Positions 7,905-21,467 of a stretch of DNA of 64,000 bases are shown piece by piece. Origin of the DNA: Paracyclopina nana (lineage: Eukaryota; Arthropoda; Copepoda; Cyclopoida; Cyclopettidae); assembly GCA_019096065.1 (NCBI GenBank), contig JAGUCH010000003.1:496001-560000 (forward strand), in the 5' to 3' direction. The notes beneath the pieces are model-generated. The model saw only the letters and a list, made by a program, of their open reading frames with translations, had not been told where the DNA came from and did no database searches. A program made the position numbers and the translations under genes. Each line of letters begins with the position of its first letter. The stretch's first letter is position 1.

Positions 7905-9108
7905 TTACAATTTCTCCTTGAGTTCAGGCACCGCCTTGAACAAATCAGCCACAAGGCCATAATCAGAAACCTGAAAGATGGGAGCCTCGGGGTCCTTGTT
8001 GATGGCCACAATCGTCTTGGAGTCCTTCATGCCAGCCAAATGCTGAATCGCTCCAGAGATTCCAACAGCAATGTATAGGTCCTATTAGGAAATGTCATTA
8101 GCTCGGATATACAAAATTATGCTTGATTGGGTCTTACTGGAGCAACGATTTTGCCAGTCTGCCCAACTTGCATGTCATTGGGCACCATACCAGCATCAAC
8201 AGCAGCTCTGGAAGCTCCTACCGCCGCTCCCATTTTGTCAGCCAAATCATAGAGCATTTGGAAGTTATCCCCAGACTTCATGCCACGTCCACCACTGATG
8301 ACAACATTGGCAGATGCCAATTCTGGCCTGTCGGACTTGGTGAGCTCTTGTCCAATAAATTTGGAGAGGTCGGGAGAAGCCACAGCCTCAGTATTTTCAG
8401 TGGCTGCAGAACCTCCAGAGCTTGCATCGGCTTCAAAAGCTGTAGGCCTAAGTAAAATCCTTGATTGGAAATAAACGAGTGAAAAATAGAGAAAATGTCC
8501 TACCTGACGGTCAAGACTTTGACAGGGTCCATGGACTTCAAGGTCATGATTGCATTGCCAGCATAAATAGTTCTGACGTAAGTGTCAGCGTCCTTGATGC
8601 CAATCACATCACTGACGGGGCTCACGTCCAGCTTGGCTGCAACCCTTGGGAAGAGATTGCGAGTGAAGGCTGAAGATCCTCCAATGATGTGAGTGAAATT
8701 GAACTGCTTTTGAGCAGCCAGGACCATGGGAGCCAGCTTTTCGGGCAAAAAGCCTTCAAAGGCTGCATTTTCAGCCACCAACACCTTGGTGACTCCGGCA
8801 ATAGAGGCAACTTCAGAGGCAGCATTGGCGCACTTGGGTCCAAGCACCAAAAAAGTGATGTCTCCTCCAATTTGCTTTGCGGCCGTGACAGCATGCCTTG
8901 AATTGGCAGACAACTTCTCGCCATTGTGCTCAGCCACGATCAAAGTTGACTGGTTACGAACCCATTGGGAAAATGGGATGGAAACCTGTTAAAATGACAG
9001 CCATCTTTAATCACCATCTACTTCTGAAGTCTGTTTCATCTAAAAACAAATTAATTGTCATGAACTAAGTCAACTTACGAGTCTGGCCTTGGAGGTGATG
9101 GAAAACAT
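7905..9108 (-). CDS. ETFA: Electron transfer flavoprotein subunit alpha, mitochondrial
   Basis: Five pieces of evidence agree. Four exons (9108-9079, 8985-8504, 8447-8138, 8081-7905) join in phase to 332 aa, the length of ETFA. The C-terminal FAD-binding domain carries [22 protein letters not shown] and [12 protein letters not shown], all characteristic of the family, and the end [15 protein letters not shown] matches the expected terminus. The N-terminus ([10 protein letters not shown]...) is Arg/Lys-containing and lacks acids, as for a mitochondrial presequence. Role: with ETFB it carries electrons from acyl-CoA dehydrogenases to ETF-ubiquinone oxidoreductase in the matrix. The first coding exon is only 30 bp and encodes most of the presequence. 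Nothing looks broken. Confidence 0.95.
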
Positions 9109-9922: not shown

Positions 9923-12900
9923 ATGACAATGCGGTACTTGCTATTCACTCTAGTATATTGTACTAGCTATCGTAGCTCGGAGCAAAGCATTAATGAGCCT
10001 AAAGTGTTTGATACCCCAACAGAAGAGGGTGAGTCAATCATAATTTGAAATGCTCCAGTCAGTATATAATTTGTTGGAATATTCCAGGATTTGAGCATTG
10101 GATGAACCTTGGTAAAAAGGAGCTGAATGTGGCTTTGGAAAGGTACAGACAACTGACCAACAAGAAAAGCGTTGAGGAGGCGTTGAGATTGAGCAAATTT
10201 CCCAAAAACGTGGTCATTTTCGTTGGTGATGGGATGAGCATGCCGACCATCAGCGGAGCTCGCATCTTAAAGGGACAAAAGCTTTTCAATGCCTCGGGCG
10301 AAGAGCAGGAACTCGTGTGGGAAAAGTTTACAGAAACGGGATTCATCAAGGTATAATGACAAGCTCATTTCTGCTTAATTAGGTACATGCTAACTAAACA
10401 CCGCACACGAACACAAAGCAACGCACACTAGTACTAAATATCGCACACTACTAAATACCGCACACTACTTTTTCTATTATATTACATCAATGAGCTTATG
10501 AAACTGGCTGGGGGAAGGTACATACTAAATACCGTACACAAACGCACCGCAACGCACAATACTAAATACCGCACACTACTTTTATACAGTCTGACCGTTC
10601 AAAATTGGACGGTACGGAAATCTACACTTTTTGTCACATATTCAATTTATAAAGGACTTTTAAATGATATCGTTGGAAAGATTGAGCCTTTTTCCATCTT
10701 TTTTGTATCAGTAGAAAAAATCAATTGAACGAGGAATAAACAGGGAAAATTCATTTTTCCCAAGGCAACCCAGAAAATTGTCATGAGAAAACTGATGCAT
10801 CATTTATTGTTTGCTGTCACGTGGAATTCTCAATAATATTTTTCATGTTGTCAGAAAACAAAAAAAGATGTCCAAAGGTTCAAGCTTTCCAACACAACGA
10901 TACCCATTAAGCCTCAAAATTCATGAATTCATAACACAAACTTTTGATTCCCGCACCGTCCAATTTTGAACGGTCAGACGGTATATTAGATATTTTTATT
11001 ATATCAATGAACTTATGAAACTGGCTGGAGGAAAACACAAATTATTTTTTTAGTCACTAGATACACTAGTAAGCATGAATACATATAATAATGTGTGAAT
11101 CCTGACAGCCCTTTTTTGCTGTTTTTTAAGTGTGTGCGGTAAAGGGCTGAATGTACCTCAAGTATTGAGGTACATTCAGCCCTTTAGTGTGCGGTATTAA
11201 GTACTGTTTTGGGAGGTCCGCTCAGTGAACATGACGTCATGATAGCGTGAGCGAAGTTGACCCATGCATAAAAAGTGTTTGAAATAGTTCGAAATAGAAT
11301 AAGGCCAAAAAGAGCCAACTTTTCATATTATTTTGCCATATTTTTAAGCAATGCCATTCTGCAAACACCTTAGATTTATGCATTGGCTTGCCCAAAAGCC
11401 AGCCTGAAATTTGCTGAAAAATTGAATTTTTTGGCAAAATATGGTCAAATTACATAAAAATCCCACCTTGCGGAAAAAATAATGAGAAAAACTGATTCAT
11501 TAGAAATTGGAGGTCTGATTTGCATATTTTTTTTTTTTTTTGCTGTGTGCGGTATTTGCAGTGTGCGGTATTTAGTAGTGTGAGTTGCGGTGCGTTTGTG
11601 TGCGGTATTTTGTATATATACGCTGGGGGAAAAACAAATTATTTTTTAGTGAATAGAAACACGAGTAAGCATGAATTGCATGTATTAATGTGTGAATCCT
11701 GATGACTCAACCGGAATCTGTTCCATCAATTATATTATGCACCAAAACCAATGATTTAACTTGCAGTGAAAGGCACTAAGTGAAAACAGTTTATTTAGAT
11801 TATGAGTGTATCAGAATAATTGCTGTAATTTTTTTCAAATACATTTCCATTTTTTTGCTGTGTCCGGTATTTAGTAGTGTGCGATATTTAGTAGCGTGCG
11901 GTATTTAGAAGTGTGCGTTGCGCTGCGTTTGTGTACGGTATTTAGTACATACGGCTTAATTCAGTTACCCCACTTCTCCTTTTTCGATTTTTAAATTAAT
12001 TTGAGAGCTGTAATCATCTCGTAATATCACGACTGTTTCTCAGCTGGAAGGTACTGGATAGGTATAAATATGTTGAGATCCAGGCGTTATTTCAAGTCGT
12101 GTTCTGCCTGACCACGGCTCTATTTCTAAGCGTTAACTTTGTGAACAAGTACTGGTAAAGCCTAGCAAAAGTTGATTACAGGCGTTACTAAGATTTCAGT
12201 TTTAAGGAAGTAACCGCTGGAAACTCAATTAACAATTAGAACTAGTTGCTGTTTCACGAGTGGATACGTACTATAATCTTTTTTCTACTTTTAGTGGTAA
12301 TGGCGAGCTATTCAGTTGTGGACCACGCAATTGCCCATTTGCATGCCTATCGTAGGCCTGGCACAGGCCTACTAACCAAAAAATGCCTTGTACCTTGCAG
12401 TTTATTGCATTTTCAGTATTTCTGACCAGAAAATGTATTTATTTATTCTCACAGGAAGTTTCTAGCAAACATAAGATAATATTAGTCATGTTAAATACGT
12501 CCAAAACTATTGATAGCAGTGTAGTCATATCAATTAAAGGAATGGTGATATGCACGCGACTATTTTCTGCATATACTGATTGGACAAAATGAAATCACAG
12601 GATTATTTCTTGGGAGGAGTAATAATGCCTTCTTCATCGACAAATTCAGGTGCATTTCCCTCACCTTCGTCAGGAGTAGCTACACGACTCTCCACCTATA
12701 TAAACAAAACAATCAAAAGGATAACGGTAATTATCTACTAAAGTTATGTAGATAGGCAACATGAATTGATGGATTATAGTATAACAAAAGTTAAACTACT
12801 ATAAAAGGAGAGGTAATGGGACTTACAGGTGGGGTTTCCTTGGGCCTGGTGGCTTCATCCTTGGCAGCTTTCTCCTTGGCAGCTCTCTCCTTACGAACTC

Positions 12901-15900
12901 GCTCCTCAGCTTTCTTGTTGTTAGCCGCAATTTCCTTGGCAAGGGCCATTTGCCTCCTCATGTTGTTGGCACTGTCGAGGAATTCCTCACCGCTGGAACA
13001 GCTGTCCTCATCTGCAAACTCATCAGCAATCCTCTTGCGAGCAGCTTGATTGAGCTTTTCATCCGTGTGCTGAGAAAAGGGATAGCATTTCCTAGGAGAA
13101 ACCGACGAAGTTCGGCGTCGCTTGGCAGGTGTTGTGGATGTTCCACTAGTGGACGGCTCTTGCTGATCTTGCTTCTTCCTCCTATTTGATCGCCGGACAG
13201 TGTCCTCTACGACAATTTCGGGAATATTGTTCCTTGCATCAGCAGAGTAGGCCTTAACCAAGGACAAGATGTCCTTATTGCGCATCTTAGCGTCCTCATA
13301 CAATTTGGCGATCTAAGATAATTGACATTTTACACCAATTGAACACTAAAAGAAGGATGTGTCACTTACCTCCGGCATCTTTGAGATGGGGTCAAACGTT
13401 AAGTTGAATGGATCGTACCCCTGCAAGTAAGCTGCTGCCATGATGATGTCGAGGGTTTCATTCTCGTCAGCTACAATGCCAGCATTGGCAGACATGTCAG
13501 CAAGGACTTTTTCCTCAGGAGGATACTCGCGTTCCTTGTCCTCAGCCTTCCTGAGCTTGAAAACCTTCTCAATTTCCTTTCGGCCAGCAACTTGAGCTCT
13601 GTGTTCCTCCTCTGTCATGGGTACAACAGCCGAGGGCAAGATGTGCTTATTAGCCTCATAGAACATGCGGTCAGTTTTCATGATGAAGTTGACGCAGGCG
13701 TCGACATCCTTAAATTGCTGAGCTGCTTGTGTGACATAGCTGCCATAATCGTTTCCGAAAGACTGAGCACAGGTGGACATTATATCGCAAAAGTTGTCGA
13801 CGCTCTCCTGAGGATGGTACCTCTTAGCCTCACGAATTCTTGGGACAAGCCCCTTGAACACCATATTGAAATAGCCTTTCATCAAAGGCCGCTTGATGAA
13901 AGTGCAGCATCTGAGCGAGCTGAATACAACATGACAATTAGCGCACACTTAGTCACAACATTTAGACATTGTACTTACTTCTTCACCAGACCATAAATCA
14001 AATGTGCACGAGCAAGTTCGGTGAACAAGTTGTTCAGCGTCGTGCGGGCAATGAAGATATTCATCCCCTTGTCGGATAGCCCTTGCAAGTGCGGCGCCAA
14101 GAAGTCCACTAACTGCTCTTGCACGAAATGGAAACTAAAGAAAATGTCGGCGGACTTTCCCATTTTGTTAAAAGGGATGAGTCTGAAAAGGATTCCCCAA
14201 GCCTTGCTCTTATTCTCCGCATTACCAAGGACAGCAGCCTGAGAGCTCAATCTCGCACCTTCATTAAGTGAAAGGCTGCTCACGTTTTCTTGAATGTTCC
14301 GTGTCATGGTTTTAACTTCCTATGATTCATCATGTAAAAATCTTATATGTGCTTTGCACAACTTGAACATGACTTACCTTCATGCCAAGGAACTTATTGT
14401 CCAGCTTTTTGTTGAGCTTCTCGAACTTCTCGTTAATCAAATTTGTCAACGTGATGACCGCATTGTCAATGTAGACCTTCAGGTCTTCATGACTAGTGGA
14501 CGACCTGATCACGACTGGCACATGAGTAGCGGCAACCTCACTCGATGACTCAAATGGAGGATCGTCATCCTGACTGTAAGTTGGCAAAGGCGTGTCTTCT
14601 ACTTGTTGCTGCTCCTCTTCCAAGTTGGCTCTTTGGGCATCTTCATCCAGCGCCTTTTGGGCATTCTGCAAGGCTTCTTCAGCAGCCTTCTCGAGAGCTT
14701 CTTCAGCAGCATCTTTCGTGGCGTCAGTAGCTGACTTAATTGCTGCCATTATTGCCTCGTCTGAAAATTGAACGACAACTTGGGAAGGAGTCATTGCATC
14801 GCATCGTACGAGTGCCGGAGTAGACTCGGTTGTTCCAGCAGTGGTCACAACGTATAAACCTTTTGCTTGGTCTTCAGCAATGTGATCCATGATGATCTGA
14901 TCCGGGTCAATGAATGACGTTCCAGGCACCAATTCAACTGTGGTGTCAAGTGAAATTGTGCCTAAGAGCTCATCGCTCGGCTGGAGCAAGTCATCCTGAC
15001 TTTTGTCCAAGTCAGATGTCTTGGACGTCTTCTTTTTAGGCTTGTCCTTAGCAATCTTGATTGCAGGCTCGTCGTTAGAGGCCTTGGCTCCAGACTTTAA
15101 CGCCATTTGAGTGACCTTGTTAGCCTTGCTAGACGACTGCTCAGTGGCTGACTCGTCGGTTATCGGGATGCCTTGGTTGATGTCCCTCCTAGTCGTCACA
15201 CGGTCAATCCTTTTGAAGACGAACTTGTCGGTCGCCGTTTTCCTTGGAATATAGTCGAAATCCTTGGGGATCTTCTCATACCACAACTCGATCATTCGTA
15301 TGTAGTCCAGCAACAGGGAGGTTGAAGCTCCTGCGGTTATCTCTTCATTGAGGTCATCCAGGATCATGTCCAAACGTCTCTGGGGGACACCTGCAAAAAG
15401 TAGAGACTCGATGTAATGGCGTCGCTATGTAGTGATTGCAAAGTCTACGTACCTCTTTCAACTCGAGCAAAGACTCGAATCGTTCGCTCCTCGCCGGTAA
15501 AAGCGTCTTGGAACTTGAATTCCTTGGTCCTGTTGTAGGTGTGAATGGACTCCAGCGGATTGAACTCCTTTTTGATCTTGTCGATCCAAAGATCATAATT
15601 GGCGTCGCGGATATCAGCCGTGACCGAATTGAACGGCACATCCATGTCGAAATCGCAGATCACAAGTCGATCATACGTTCCGCCGATCGATTCTTCGGTT
15701 TCCTTCTTCTTAGGGCCCATTTTTCACCAGTATTCGCTTTTCTTTAAATTTTGACGGTGTCTCGGATGAGAGGCTCGCGAGAAAAGTGAGTCAGCAAATT
15801 TTGGTCAGCTGTCGATTTGATTTTGACACTACCTTATCACGGCTGTGTCACGTCTGGAAATGGCGACGCTTTGAAGTTTCAGCTGTGCCGCTCTGTGATT

Positions 15901-18900
15901 GGTTGATTTGAATTGGCGTCTATTGCATCGAGTCCTGGGATTGGCTGATTTGAATTGGCGTCTATTAATTGCATCGAGTCATGGGATTGGCTGATTTGAA
16001 TTGGCGTCTATTGCATCGAGTCCTGTGATTGGTCGACACATGTTTCAAACATTGACTACTATTGGTTGAGTCAACTGCGCAGTTTAAGTTAAGAAATCGT
16101 TTCGTGCAGACTGAAACATTTCTCAGTGATTCCAAATTCGCAATTTCGGAAACGACAGGCCTAGCAATGCCTAGAAAGTGAGTCCTACTTCAAAGTTACT
16201 GCCTTTGCAGAAATTAATCATTGTTAATATTTTAGAAAACGTGACGACTCAGACATGAGTCGACGAGAGTTGACCAAAAGTAGACGCAAAAGCAACAGAG
16301 TTGTGACCAGTGTGCGACGACAACTCGATCTAATTCGCAATATTGTGCAATCAAACCCTACGAATGACGCAGATTCCCCAGGAATTAATGATCGGTATGT
16401 CTTTTTCGTCATCATTATTGAAGACGGTTCTTATCAGTTGTTATAATTCATTTCCAGGCGTGCTAAAGTTGTTGACAATTCGGATTTGATCAATGACTGC
16501 TTTGTGGAATTGCAAAATATCCTGGATCATGAGGAGCGTGTGGCACAAGATGCATCGGATGAGTATTCATCTGGTGATGAGTTCGTCCAAAGTTCATTGA
16601 AGGATACGGAGAAGAAAAAGAATAAGAAAAGGCAGCGTAAAGCTCAGTCAGACGATAGTGCTGACGAGTTCTCAGTTGAGCAGCTGTTAGAGCAGGAGCA
16701 TTTGGAGGCACTTGCAAAGAAGGCCCCTCCCAAGTTCACGTTCCGCCCAACTCCAACAACACATCCAGAACTTGCAATGCCATCGACCAGTCGTGACACA
16801 TCAGTCTCAGTACCATTGGCGAGGTCGTCTGCTCTTGTTGATCTCACACGGCCATCTGGAAGTGGTGATATGTCAATCTCTGTTCCAATGGTTCCGCAGC
16901 AGCAAATGACTGGTCAAGACAATGGCGTCGGATCTGCAATGAATGGCCATGAAAGTCAGGAGCCAGCAAGTGCTGAAAACAGTGACGTTGAGGTCGAATT
17001 TGCTTCTGAGCCGGGAGACATTGACTTCCATGTTGATTTGGATAGCGACAGCGATATGCCTGAAACTGACAATGAATTGGCCAGTCGTATATATAACGAT
17101 TTCAATAAATCTGAAGGGCACTTTCTGAACAAGATCATCATGAACATCTGTCAGTCAGACGACGAGGATGAGAAGGAGAGCCTTAATTGGCGTGAGCGTG
17201 AATTCAACAGGGCTTGTGAAGATGACCACCAATTTAGCGAAGATGAAGAGGAAGGTGAAGAGGTCCTTGACAAGTTCCTCCACACTCATGAGCCTGAACC
17301 GGATCCTGACGAAATGGAGATTGACGATGAAGAAATTGTCGTGGCCAACTTAAATACTGATGGAGAGGCCGTGCCTATGCGATATGCAGCTTTTGTGGAG
17401 TACTTCGAAAAAGAAAAGGCCTTGGAAGGAAAGGATGAACGTCATCGAAGTTTCGTCGAGCTGTTTACAGCTGTCATGCGTAAGTCTTTTGCCAACAAGA
17501 CCACTGAGAAGATTGTGTATAATCTGTTTCGAGCGCGTGAAAAAGTTTACCGTCAAGTTAAGATGCGAGGATTGGAATCCAGCAAGAAACGATGGCTCAA
17601 CAAGCATCCTCGAGTCCTCATGGACTATGAAATTAAGGATCTGAAAACTGGCAGGATTTTCATGTCACGAAGGAATGTGCGCTTCCCCCGAAAAAAATAT
17701 CCGGCAAGCAAATTTAAGAAAATTTCTGAGTTCACCCACTGTTCAATTAATGACTTATTTGAACACTCGCAACAAATCCACGGTCGAAGCACACTTGATC
17801 CGCCACAAAAGGGCCATGACATGGTCGATATTTTCATGGATGGCGTACCAGTGGTCAAGAGTAGTGAAGCCAAGCTTGATTGCACCTGTCTCAGATTTCC
17901 ACACTGCAAGAACGTGTACGTGTATGGGATGCATGTTTATGCTAGGGATGCTAAGTTGAATTGTGTTCAAGTGCTGGCAAAGCTGATCCAAGAGATTGAA
18001 TCGGCAGGTTTCTACATTCGACGCATTATTGCTGATGGCCCAATGCGCGCAGCTTTGAAATGCCTGCACACTTTTGCCGGCTATTACAGCTGTGAGTTTT
18101 GTCTCACTAAAGGTGAGAAGCCAGGCAATAAGCTCATCTTTCCAAGCACTACCATGAATGATGTTGACCTCAAGCGTGGTGCTGAATGGTGGAGGAACAT
18201 GGCCGCTCGTATTGCAGAAGAAGGCATTGAAAATATTCCGGCAGAGGAACTTTGCGGACTCACAGGAGCTTCTCCACTACTGGATGTGACGTACTTCAAC
18301 ATGTACAAGGCCTTCACATGCGAGCCAATGCATATGATCGGAGGCGTCTGCAAAAAATTCATTCAAATGATATTCAAGATTAACAAAAAGCAAGGAAAGC
18401 GTTTAACTGCAGAGCAGACCAATCTCATGACCAAGTTTGACCTGAGGTGGATGAATATTAAGATGCCACGTGAGTTCTGCAGGCTTAACAGATCAATGAT
18501 TCGCTCCCACATCTTCTACAAGTCTCAAGAATATTTTTCAATGATTGCGGTTGGGTTCTTGGCAATTGGCGACGTCTTGAGCACTGATGATGAAACCACC
18601 AAGAGCAAGCGCACGCCTTGGCTCATTTTCGCTTACCTAACCAGGTGTGCTATGTTCGACAACAAGAAGTGGAGGGAAATCATTCAGAAGAAAGTGCCAT
18701 TCTTCATGTTGATCAACAATCTGTACACTTCCTATGAGGCTGGATTTGAGGAGAGCGAGTGCACATGGAATCTGCACAACTTTAGCCATTTGTTTGAGCT
18801 ACGCGAGATTGCACCTCTTCCGGACTTGTCGGCACTCCAATTCGAGGGTCTTTTCAGCATCTTAAAGAAGGTGGTAAAGCCGAACACATGCTCATTTTCG

Positions 18901-21467
18901 AAACAAGTGATTGAGATCATTACCGCCTACAACGTGCGTCAACACAACTGCAATAATGTGGTGAGGTTCTCCGAGAAAGAAAGCGACAGATACTCTGACA
19001 ACAAGCTTTACACCCGTGACGGACACTTCTATCAAATTGAGAAGATTGAAGATGACCATTACCTTTGCAAAAGGTACTTGACGTCCAAATTCGAGACTCT
19101 ACCAATTGTAAGGCTAAACTGGGATGTCGTCGGAGTACGCAAACTTGTGAGCTTGCCCAGCACTCTTCATGTTGTGCCTAAATCAACGGTAATTGGAAAA
19201 GCAACGATTGACCAAGACATCCTTATTTCGGTCCCATTTGATTTCTTTTTCGTGTAAGGACCAAAGATGACTTTGGTCAAGCAGTCAGCATTTATGCCAC
19301 TCTAGTTCATGTCGACTTAAAGTTATGCTTATTGTGAAAATAAAAACAGGAAAGGTCATTAAAAAATAATGATATGAGCATTGCTAATTAATTCATGCGT
19401 AATTTAAAAGATGTACAGAAATGGCAACTCAGCATCATGCAGATCAAGTTTATTGTTGTAGCAGTTGTTTTTTCCAGTTGTGAAAAGTACATTAAACCTA
19501 CTCTAAAGTCGTGACATATTGTAACAAATTATATGTACTTAGAATAACAACTCATCCAGCAGTGGTCCACGAGATGTCCACAGCTTAAATCTAGAAAAAA
19601 AAAATTTGGTCACAAATTGTAGCAGTCGTAAAACATTAGTTATCATCTCATTGACTACAGCATTTGCTCGCATTAAATCTAAGGAAAACGCGTAAGGTGT
19701 GCAAAGGCCAAGTCGCACTTGTAATCAGGTTGAGCATTTTCGAAAAGGAGAAGTGGGGTAATTGTCAAGTGCTTTAAATCAATTACAAATGTAGGAAAAA
19801 CTCTATATACTAAGGCCATTAAAAGTTGTCTCCTTTATGTCCTTGAAGCGTTATAAAGCAGGAATTTCATTAGGATTTCTTTTTTAAAGAGATTTGTGCC
19901 TTTTTACGCAGACTTACAACACTGACAAGCAAACAGGTGATTCCGCAGCTACTGCAGTTGCCATGTTCACCGGAGTGAAAGCCGTGCACAAGACGCTTGG
20001 ATTCACCGGACCCATCGTTTTCAAGAAGCCATCGAGTGAGAAATCGGCCGAGAAATTGACCACCATTTTGGACTGGGCTCAAGAGGCGGGCATGAAGACA
20101 GGCTTTGTCACCACCACAAGAATCACGCACGCTACACCTGCAGCTCTGTATGCCCATTCAGCAAGTCGTGATTGGGAATGCGACGCTGCAATTATCGAGA
20201 AAAAAGTACTCATGGACAAGGACGAGGCGTTACCCACGCCTGATCAAGTATAATTACCCAAGATTTCTTTTTTTTGGCTGGTGAGTTTAGATGTTTTTTC
20301 TTTCAGCTCGCAGATATAGCTCGACAATTAGTGGAGAATGAACCGGGCAACAGAACAGATGTCATTTTCGGTGGAGGCTACCTGGCCTTCAAGGCCATTC
20401 CGGATTACGAGCCCAAATCTGCATGGGATTGCATGCGCAAAGATGGGAGGGATTTGACCCGCGAGTGGTGCGACAATCAAGCCAGCCAAGGCTTCGATCA
20501 CAGATTTGTGTCCACTGCGAGCGAGCTCAGGGAGGCCATTGCATCCGGAGTGCCCAAGGTGTTTGGTCTTTTCGCCGAATCTCACATGTCATATGAGTAC
20601 CAGAGGCCTGACAACCAGCCAAGTTTGACTGAAATGGCCACTTCGGCCGTGAACATCTTGAAGAAAACGGATACAAAGGATAAGGGCTTTTTCTTGATGG
20701 TCGAAGGCGGAAGGATTGACCATGCTCATCACGACAACATGGGCAAATTGGCCTTGGATGAGACCGTGAGCCTTGACAATGCAGTGGAAAAAGTGCAGGA
20801 GACTCTAAAAGAACTGGGCATTTTGGACGAGACGCTGATTATCGTCACAGCAGATCATGGCCATACCATGAACATTGTGGGGTATCCTGAAAGGGGGCAA
20901 GAGTTCCCTGCACTCCATATGCCCACTGACGGCGATGGCATTTTTGAAACCTCAATCACCTATGCCAACGGGCCAAGCGCTAATGCAAGCTCATATGCAA
21001 TCAATGAAAATGGGGCTTGCGTCAGAGTTGACCCCTCGAAGCAAGACTACAGGTAATTTACGAATAATATGAAGAAGCTAACTCACAATGATGGCGTTAT
21101 TCTTCACAGGGACATGAAGTATCAGTATCCAGCCCTTGCTTATCGAAGGAGTGAAAGCCATGGCTCGGAGGATGTTGGTATTTGGGCCTCGGGCCCCATG
21201 GCATTTTTGTTCCACAAAACTCACGAGCAGAGCTACGTCGGCCATGTGATTGCGTTTGTCTTGAAAATTGGCCACTTTCGTAACGATCCCAGGAGACTTC
21301 TAGACGATGCGAATCACGATTCCCAGGAGAGCCTCATTGACCTGGATGGCAACACTCAATTCTGGCTAATTGTCGTCTTGAGCGTGATCAGCGTTTTGAT
21401 GACATTGGTATCGGTGCTCTTATTTATGAAAATTCGAAGCAGGCACAGAGCCAACTATCCTCTATAA
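9923..21467 (+). CDS. Membrane-bound alkaline phosphatase
   Basis: Five exons, 9923-10028, 10088-10350, 19912-20247, 20307-21052 and 21110-21467, join in phase to 602 aa. Family landmarks: signal peptide (MRYLLFTLVYC), VIFVGDGMS metal site, TGDSAATA containing the nucleophile serine, EGGRIDHAHH, and TADHGHT. Family knowledge: a Zn/Mg phosphomonoesterase on the outer cell surface. Unlike most animal enzymes, which carry a GPI signal, the C-terminus has a long hydrophobic segment (FWLIVVLSVISVLMTLVSVL) followed by a basic tail MKIRSRHRANYPL, so it looks like a type I transmembrane anchor. The second intron (10351-19911, 9.6 kb) contains a repeat cluster and a whole DNA transposon, yet the flanking exons read TGFIK|TYNTDKQ exactly as expected for the family. 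Confidence 0.93.
10587..10981. mobile_element. Tc1/mariner-type MITE, 395 bp
   Basis: Perfectly placed 27-bp terminal inverted repeats with one mismatch: 10587-10613 starts CAGTCTGACCGTTC, and the reverse complement of 10955-10981 starts CCGTCTGACCGTTC. It is flanked on both sides by TA (10585-10586 and 10982-10983), the target-site duplication of Tc1/mariner elements. No transposase is encoded. It sits inside the CCGCACAC repeat cluster, so it is younger than its host repeat. Confidence 0.8.
11141..11185. repeat. Perfect 21-bp-arm hairpin
   Basis: AAAGGGCTGAATGTACCTCAA (11141-11161) is followed by a 3-nt spacer and its exact reverse complement (11165-11185). It is flanked by GTGTGCGGT on one side and AGTGTGCGGT on the other. 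It could be a very short palindromic insertion or the tip of the surrounding foldback repeat. Confidence 0.85.
12603..15720 (-). CDS. Transposon accessory protein of unknown function, 916 aa
   Basis: Six exons, 15720-15453, 15390-14378, 14319-13979, 13919-13370, 13312-12827 and 12695-12603, join in phase from ATG (MGPKKKETEES) to TAA (TPPKK). I recognise no known domain. Visible features: a compact N-terminal region (about 1-90); a Lys/Glu/Ala-rich low-complexity middle with EKAAEEALQNAQKALDE coiled-coil character; a conserved-looking region rich in aromatic residues (GILFRLIPFNKMGKSADIFF, YHPQESVDNFC); two basic nuclear-localisation-like clusters (RRSNRRKKQ, PAKRRR); and a charged C-terminal helix. 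It shares a 450-bp divergent promoter with the transposase. By analogy with two-gene CACTA elements it could bind the element's ends or regulate it; that is inference only. Confidence 0.8.
15897..16035. promoter_or_regulatory. Bidirectional transposon promoter with ~42-45-bp tandem repeats
   Basis: Three consecutive units of the form GATTGGCTGATTTGAATTGG... followed by GCATCGAGTC, plus a partial fourth, lie between the two divergent start codons (15720 and 16167). Each unit carries two ATTGG pentamers, i.e. CCAAT boxes on the minus strand. The unit length varies only by a small TTAA-like insertion in the middle copy. Repeated CCAAT boxes between divergent genes fit a shared promoter or a binding array for an element-encoded protein. 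Confidence 0.65.
16167..19257 (+). CDS. CACTA/EnSpm-like transposase, 989 aa
   Basis: Three exons, 16167-16177, 16236-16394 and 16458-19257, join in phase starting MPRKKRDDSD. The N-terminal 330 aa are acidic and low-complexity. The core resembles the widespread animal EnSpm-like transposases: a first Asp in DIFMDGVPVVKSS, a second in IIADGPMRAALK, then a Cys pair in CEFCLTKGE, a PLLD...M-H(x)2-GGV motif and a PREF-x-R basic segment before the last conserved helices. Family knowledge: these are DDE nucleases that cut at terminal repeats. The assignment of the individual catalytic residues is inferred from motif order. The first coding exon is only 11 nt. No stops or frameshifts are present, so the protein may be functional. 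Confidence 0.8.

Follow-up and report, generated by a model that had tools for sequence, protein, structure and literature searches.

The stretch of DNA analysed here (64,000 nucleotides, hereafter referred to as the window) lies in contig C3 of the genome searched (92 Mb, 10 contigs) and contains neighbouring genes of animal appearance, a kinase with a TNK-type SAM domain and an alkaline phosphatase. An intron of the alkaline phosphatase gene carries a DNA transposon with two divergent genes, as the initial annotation had proposed (Table 1), and with this element the intron reaches a length of 9.56 kb. The alkaline phosphatase exons were joined by eye. The two exons flanking the intron, together with the next exon, gave one continuous match to Alk_phosphatase (E 4.2e-100), extending over residues 40-435 of 449 and across the exon junction, consistent with the earlier statement that the host exons join correctly on either side of the element. 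These open and joinable exons suggest that the gene would be spliced normally across the insertion, which provides a natural test of splicing tolerance for a 9.6-kb intron.

A second repeat, of about 1.6 kb (10382-11953), occupies the 5' part of the same intron and stops about 15 bp short of the transposon. Its imperfect inverted ends (77 bp, 83%) consist of TACTAAATACCGCACAC-type units, and its flanks are similar (GCTTAATTAG and GCTTAATTCAG). A search with its right end gave 29 rows in the rest of the genome, at 91-96% identity.

Table 1. Positions of the host intron, the transposon and its predicted genes in the window
Feature	Position	Strand	Basis
Host alkaline phosphatase intron (GT...AG) containing the element	10351..19911	+	exon joining, Alk_phosphatase match
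Complete transposon	11968..19758	+	7,791 bp; ends from comparison with six close relatives, confirmed by the duplication
Left 2-bp target site duplication, TA	11966..11967	.	flank comparison
Right 2-bp target site duplication, TA	19759..19760	.	flank comparison
Left terminal inverted repeat, CCCCACTTCTCCTTTT	11968..11983	+	16/16 bp matched to right end
Right terminal inverted repeat	19743..19758	-	16/16 bp matched to left end
Second gene, exon 6 (predicted)	12603..12695	-	exon model
Second gene, exon 5 (predicted)	12827..13312	-	exon model
Second gene, exon 4, conserved core	13370..13919	-	exon model; genome search
Second gene, exon 3 (predicted)	13979..14319	-	exon model; relatives' matches
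Second gene, exon 2 (predicted)	14378..15390	-	exon model; relatives' matches
Second gene, exon 1 (predicted)	15453..15720	-	exon model; relatives' matches
Region between the start codons	15721..16166	.	446 bp; repeat search
Transposase, exon 1 (predicted)	16167..16177	+	exon model
Transposase, exon 2 (predicted)	16236..16394	+	exon model
Transposase, exon 3, catalytic region (D518, D583, C602, C605, H682, H830, H834, E853)	16458..19257	+	exon model; protein alignment

Element ends and target site duplications

The inverted ends of the window element (CCCCACTTCTCCTTTT) were identical over 16/16 bp. In the repeat search, this pair of ends (22 nt, 95%) ranked second among inverted pairs, the first being a local hairpin. 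The boundaries were established for 13 elements: the window element, six relatives fetched whole and six more distant ones. The six close relatives had CCCCACTTCT at the start and AGAAGTGGGG at the end, with matching dinucleotides outside. The matching ends described in the initial annotation were thus upheld, but the leading TTA of its repeat of about 22 bp lies outside the element; a start at TTACCCC was ruled out, as the six homologous copies break at CCCC. The ends of the distant relatives were CCCCACCAAA (L053), CCCAACTACG (L054), CCCAACTAGG/CCCGACTAGG (L055 and L056) and CCCCACTAAG (L057 and L058); those of L053 and L054 were defined from the best distant inverted pair of each element, and those of the pairs L055/L056 and L057/L058 were placed where the paired copies cease to match. 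A genome-wide count of the 15-base end, with two mismatches allowed, was uninformative (160 matches, versus 250 for the reversed control).

All 13 elements from this one genome, each with both ends defined and the window element included, begin with CCC, in line with the initial report that the termini are not of the CACTA type. A perfect 2-bp target duplication was also present in every one of them, with an expectation of about 1 in 16 per element by chance. The duplicated dinucleotides (TA, CA, AT, CC, TT, AA, AA, TT, GA, CT, GA, AT and AT) varied in sequence, indicating that the target duplication is 2 bp long and has no fixed sequence. In the window, TA is present on both sides of the element, although no target duplication had been recognized there; we think that it was missed because TA is self-complementary and looked like part of the repeat.

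Two divergent genes

The transposase model (989 aa) consists of three predicted exons, and that of the second gene (916 aa) of six predicted exons on the minus strand, between positions 15720 and 12603. Neither contains a stop or a frameshift in the window copy, confirming the earlier description of two open, divergent, multi-exon genes. Realignment of both proteins to the element returned the same exons, which is a check of consistency rather than independent evidence.

The window transposase was aligned with 15 others, 26-82% identical to it. D518, D583, C602, C605, H682, H834 and E853 were invariant in the 16 proteins, and H830 was present in 15. The order D-D-C(2)C-H-H(3)H-E was retained; this is the pattern of the CMCT clade (CACTA/Mirage/Chapaev/Transib/RAG1) and agrees with the EnSpm/CACTA-like motifs mentioned in the initial annotation. 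The distances from D583 to C602 and from H834 to E853 were both 19 residues in all 16 proteins. In RAG1, the series is reported as D600, D708, C727, C730, H937, H942 and E962 (PMC4914335), with corresponding spacings of 19 and 20, so D-19-C(2)C and H-19-E in the 16 proteins are close to D708-C727-C730 and H942-E962.

Pfam gave no match to the full window transposase at E up to 10, and searches with the 16 catalytic regions at E up to 1 returned weak hits in single members only (lowest E 0.015). One of these regions matched rve, the integrase core domain, with an E of 0.06, a weak single-member match that was not counted. A PDB sequence search with the transposase found no match, no relatives were found in viral contigs, prokaryote genomes or phages, and a single-sequence fold model of the window transposase (mean pLDDT 34.8) was too poor to use. 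Given the Pfam, PDB and modelling results, clade assignment rests on the motif pattern and the terminal features.

The second gene was found in all 13 fetched elements (window included), with a protein identity of 22-32% in L057/L058, the most distant pair. The matches to its protein in L009, L013, L055, L056, L057 and L058 break at residue 90, which is the predicted first exon boundary, providing independent support for the gene model. A genome search with the exon-4 core yielded 54 matches at E up to 1e-3, three of them from one broken copy (L013), and 98 at E up to 10. Fifty of the 54 sit divergently, 3.0-5.5 kb from a transposase match, whereas in 200 random placements such pairings averaged 0.5 and never exceeded three. 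Conversely, no more than 50 of the 150 transposase matches listed had a second-gene partner identified at E up to 1e-3, although missing partners in distant lineages can reflect low search sensitivity; the second gene of L058 had an E of only 3.9 in the exon-4 core search, yet was detected by direct comparison with the fetched element. Four second-gene matches, at C2:14814127, C7:1828825, C1:12848382 and C4:468214, had no listed transposase nearby and could be deletion derivatives, solo genes or cases of a missed partner.

The non-synonymous rate (Ka) between the window element and L009 was 0.26 for both genes (975 and 863 codons). Synonymous sites were saturated in this comparison, so the non-synonymous rate alone was used and ratios of 0.0 were considered an artefact; Ka/Ks ratios of near-identical copies were set aside and attributed to alignment shifts. 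Equal Ka values, together with saturated synonymous sites, indicate amino-acid constraint on both proteins. The second protein had no meaningful match in Pfam or PDB. A literature search covering titles and the first part of abstracts, with Repbase outside its scope, found no description of such a gene, which may already be described in Repbase.

The 446-bp region between the two start codons suggests a shared divergent promoter. It includes three direct repeat copies of a TGATTGGCTGATTTGAATTGGCGTCTATTGCATCGAGTC-like sequence (15894-16032, spaced by 42 and 46 bp), possibly a regulatory or protein-binding array.

Relatives in the genome

Used as a DNA query against the genome, the whole element recovered relatives in pieces, with 64-79% identity (the best being 73% over 1.9 kb of the transposase), and no near-identical copy of the window element in the assembly. 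Other loci carried relatives that share its ends and gene order, as the search for further copies proposed in the initial annotation was designed to reveal; the locus is consequently not a single-copy sequence devoid of terminal-repeat homologues, the alternative envisaged there, since the homologous loci are themselves transposons, with 73% as the best DNA match. Three of these elements on three contigs (L010, L011 and L012) were 99.8-99.9% identical to each other over 7.7 kb, and the more distant pairs L055/L056 and L057/L058 were 99.94% and 99.7% identical, respectively.

Searching the genome with the C-terminal 217 residues of the transposase yielded 151 matches, and 138 of the 150 listed had no stop in the matched stretch. 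The preceding 401 residues gave 104 matches, with stops in five rows; these numbers refer to rows rather than elements, as a broken copy can give several rows, and the counts are lower bounds. Some members are damaged: L013 is broken in several places, the transposase of L010 lies in two frames, and stops interrupt the second-gene models of L013 (three) and L014 (two), those of L014 possibly arising from a mis-modelled intron. The group of elements is nonetheless large and apparently recently active, and the members examined share two back-to-back genes.

An empty site was found for one of the five elements tested. The joined flanks of L056 (C6:6608767-6617888), minus one GA, matched C1:5256252-5256529 at 278/278 bases, so that the target DNA of this element is present again, free of the element and 100% identical over 278 bases. 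The insertion of L056 is most simply interpreted as younger than the duplication of its flanking DNA. For the other four elements (L014, L012, L010 and L011), all with window-type ends, the genome search returned only their own two flanks, and no empty site was found.

Positions 282-454 of L055, and also L056, contain the final 173 bp of L009, including its CCCC end, with 96% identity; a relative that is truncated or non-autonomous is here embedded in another lineage. The terminal 40 bases of this fragment were also found in L019 (C1:12840053-12843067) and L031 (C9:4099145-4102159). The insertion site of L054 consists of tandemly repeated ACTCAGTTCTCAACGG-like units (flanks at about L054:605-744 and 8855-8994).

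Affiliation of the element and possible roles of its genes

The CCC ends and 2-bp duplications correspond to those of TRC elements, the animal CACTA-related elements characterized by CCC ends, 2-bp duplications, a CXXC motif and Transposase_21 (DeMarco 2006, PMC1636069). In TRC elements, including SmTRC1 of Schistosoma mansoni and those of Tribolium castaneum and Aedes aegypti, CCC is present at both ends and the catalytic region contains CXXC, two conserved D and an E, as in the window element; SmTRC1 is likewise inserted in an intron, and the A. aegypti TRC element, at 9.2 kb, is comparable in size (PMC1636069). The same terminal signature is found in Spongebob/EnSpm-4N1_HM of Hydra, which has CCCAG ends and a 2-bp duplication and was assigned to TRC (PMC4298943). 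The idea, put forward on the basis of the termini, that the element might belong to an undescribed subgroup is thus not borne out, as the combination of CCC ends and 2-bp duplications is the published TRC signature (PMC1636069, PMC4298943). These terminal features have been known since 2006 and are not new. What sets the present element apart is its divergence at the protein level, the depth of its group within a single genome and a second gene conserved in divergent orientation.

Several differences from TRC were observed. The two D residues are 64 residues apart here, versus 80 in TRC, and SmTRC1, about 4.5 kb long, has a single main ORF and transcripts that are alternatively spliced; the available part of its description mentions no second gene in divergent orientation (PMC1636069). 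Similarly, the available text on Spongebob/EnSpm-4N1_HM describes no second gene, and stops or frameshifts prevented its exact transposase from being found there (PMC4298943). Transposase_21 (PF02992) was absent from the Pfam matches of the window protein and of the 16 catalytic regions; a whole-genome PF02992 search was silent, but its 14 controls were equally silent. TRC box A ([LVI]D.[LM]H...LG) was present letter for letter in two of the 16 proteins (L057 and L070), with none in the reversed control (0/16), and was absent from the window copy, which reads CEPMHMIGG. Box I, which ends in W-P-[ILV], was found in none of the 16, with only its hydrophobic-DG core retained. As Pfam does not recognize the window protein and this copy lacks both TRC motifs tested, a distinct lineage at the protein level is possible.

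In the CMCT clade, C(2)C and H(3-4)H lie between the second D and the last E (Kojima 2025, PMC12730594), and the legend of the corresponding figure mentions a total of three conserved H. C(2)C/H(3-4)H is shared by EnSpm/CACTA, Mirage, Chapaev, Transib/RAG1, Plavaka, ESTA and Lanisha, and the ends are mostly CA...TG, with duplications of 2-5 bp, whereas the elements described here have CCC ends and 2-bp duplications of no fixed sequence; PlavakaA has TGT ends with 2 bp, and ESTA has TA duplications (PMC12730594). The CACTA or CAC start of EnSpm/CACTA in the narrow sense was not found in any of the 13 elements. CACTA elements, identified partly by their ends, have been reported in a crustacean, Daphnia (PMC2884549), so CACTA-type elements are not unusual as such in arthropods.

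We consider the window element to be, with high probability, an autonomous cut-and-paste DNA transposon of the CMCT clade and of the animal TRC-like type, with a second protein as putative partner. It is TRC-like rather than a proven member of TRC, and it would resemble TRC in its working as far as sequence can show. The transposase would be a DDE enzyme whose C(2)C/H(3)H insertion is predicted from the motif to bind zinc; it would bind the CCCCACTTCT inverted ends and excise the element. The enzyme would then join the element to a staggered cut that is 2 bp wide and not fixed in sequence, which here would have produced the TA duplication. The divergently transcribed second protein, judging from its co-inheritance with the transposase, may be a dedicated partner, perhaps an end-binding or assembly factor. 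More tentatively, and with rather less than even confidence, the elements may constitute a deeply diversified CMCT lineage missed by current domain libraries, in which transposition requires the products of two co-evolving, back-to-back genes, one a DDE transposase resembling RAG1 and the other its dedicated partner. Such an arrangement would parallel the two-protein systems RAG1/RAG2 and TNPD/TNPA.

The lack of Transposase_21 matches in the window protein and the 16 catalytic regions, the distribution of boxes A and I, and the failure of Pfam and PDB searches to return any meaningful match for the second gene family could also be taken as signs of a separate, undescribed superfamily within or beside CMCT, with CCC ends and 2-bp duplications due to retention or convergence. 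This appears unlikely, as the ends, the duplication length, CXXC and the overall D-D-E order are those of TRC, and the distant relatives L057 and L070 carry the exact box A. The second gene might instead be a passenger, such as a captured host gene, outside the transposition machinery, which would fit its having no domain recognizable with Pfam and its detection beside at most one-third of the listed transposase matches (50 of 150 at E up to 1e-3). Its presence in 13/13 fetched elements, the pairing of 50/54 matches with a transposase and a Ka equal to that of the transposase make this improbable; a recent passenger would not track transposases that have diverged so deeply.

Doubts about mobility concern the window copy itself. 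This copy may be capable of moving at present, but it has no near-identical copy in the assembly and could be an intact but immobile or silenced relic, a somewhat unlikely explanation given its two open genes and its ends identical at 16/16 positions, unusual for an old insertion. The many open reading frames might suggest a domesticated host gene family rather than transposons, but the probability of this is negligible: the inverted ends, target duplications, empty site and near-identical dispersed copies led us to discard it. As the second gene accompanies transposases that differ widely, whether the CMCT clade needs a partner protein can be tested directly. Many open, apparently recently moved CACTA-like animal elements are present in one compact genome, and members of this Pfam-invisible group could be counted as host genes by automatic annotation. 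Equal search scores pointed to many deeply different transposase lineages, each with one to a few near-identical open copies, a pattern checked by alignment for L010-L013, L055/L056 and L057/L058 only; it looks as if old copies were removed quickly or lineages arrived repeatedly.
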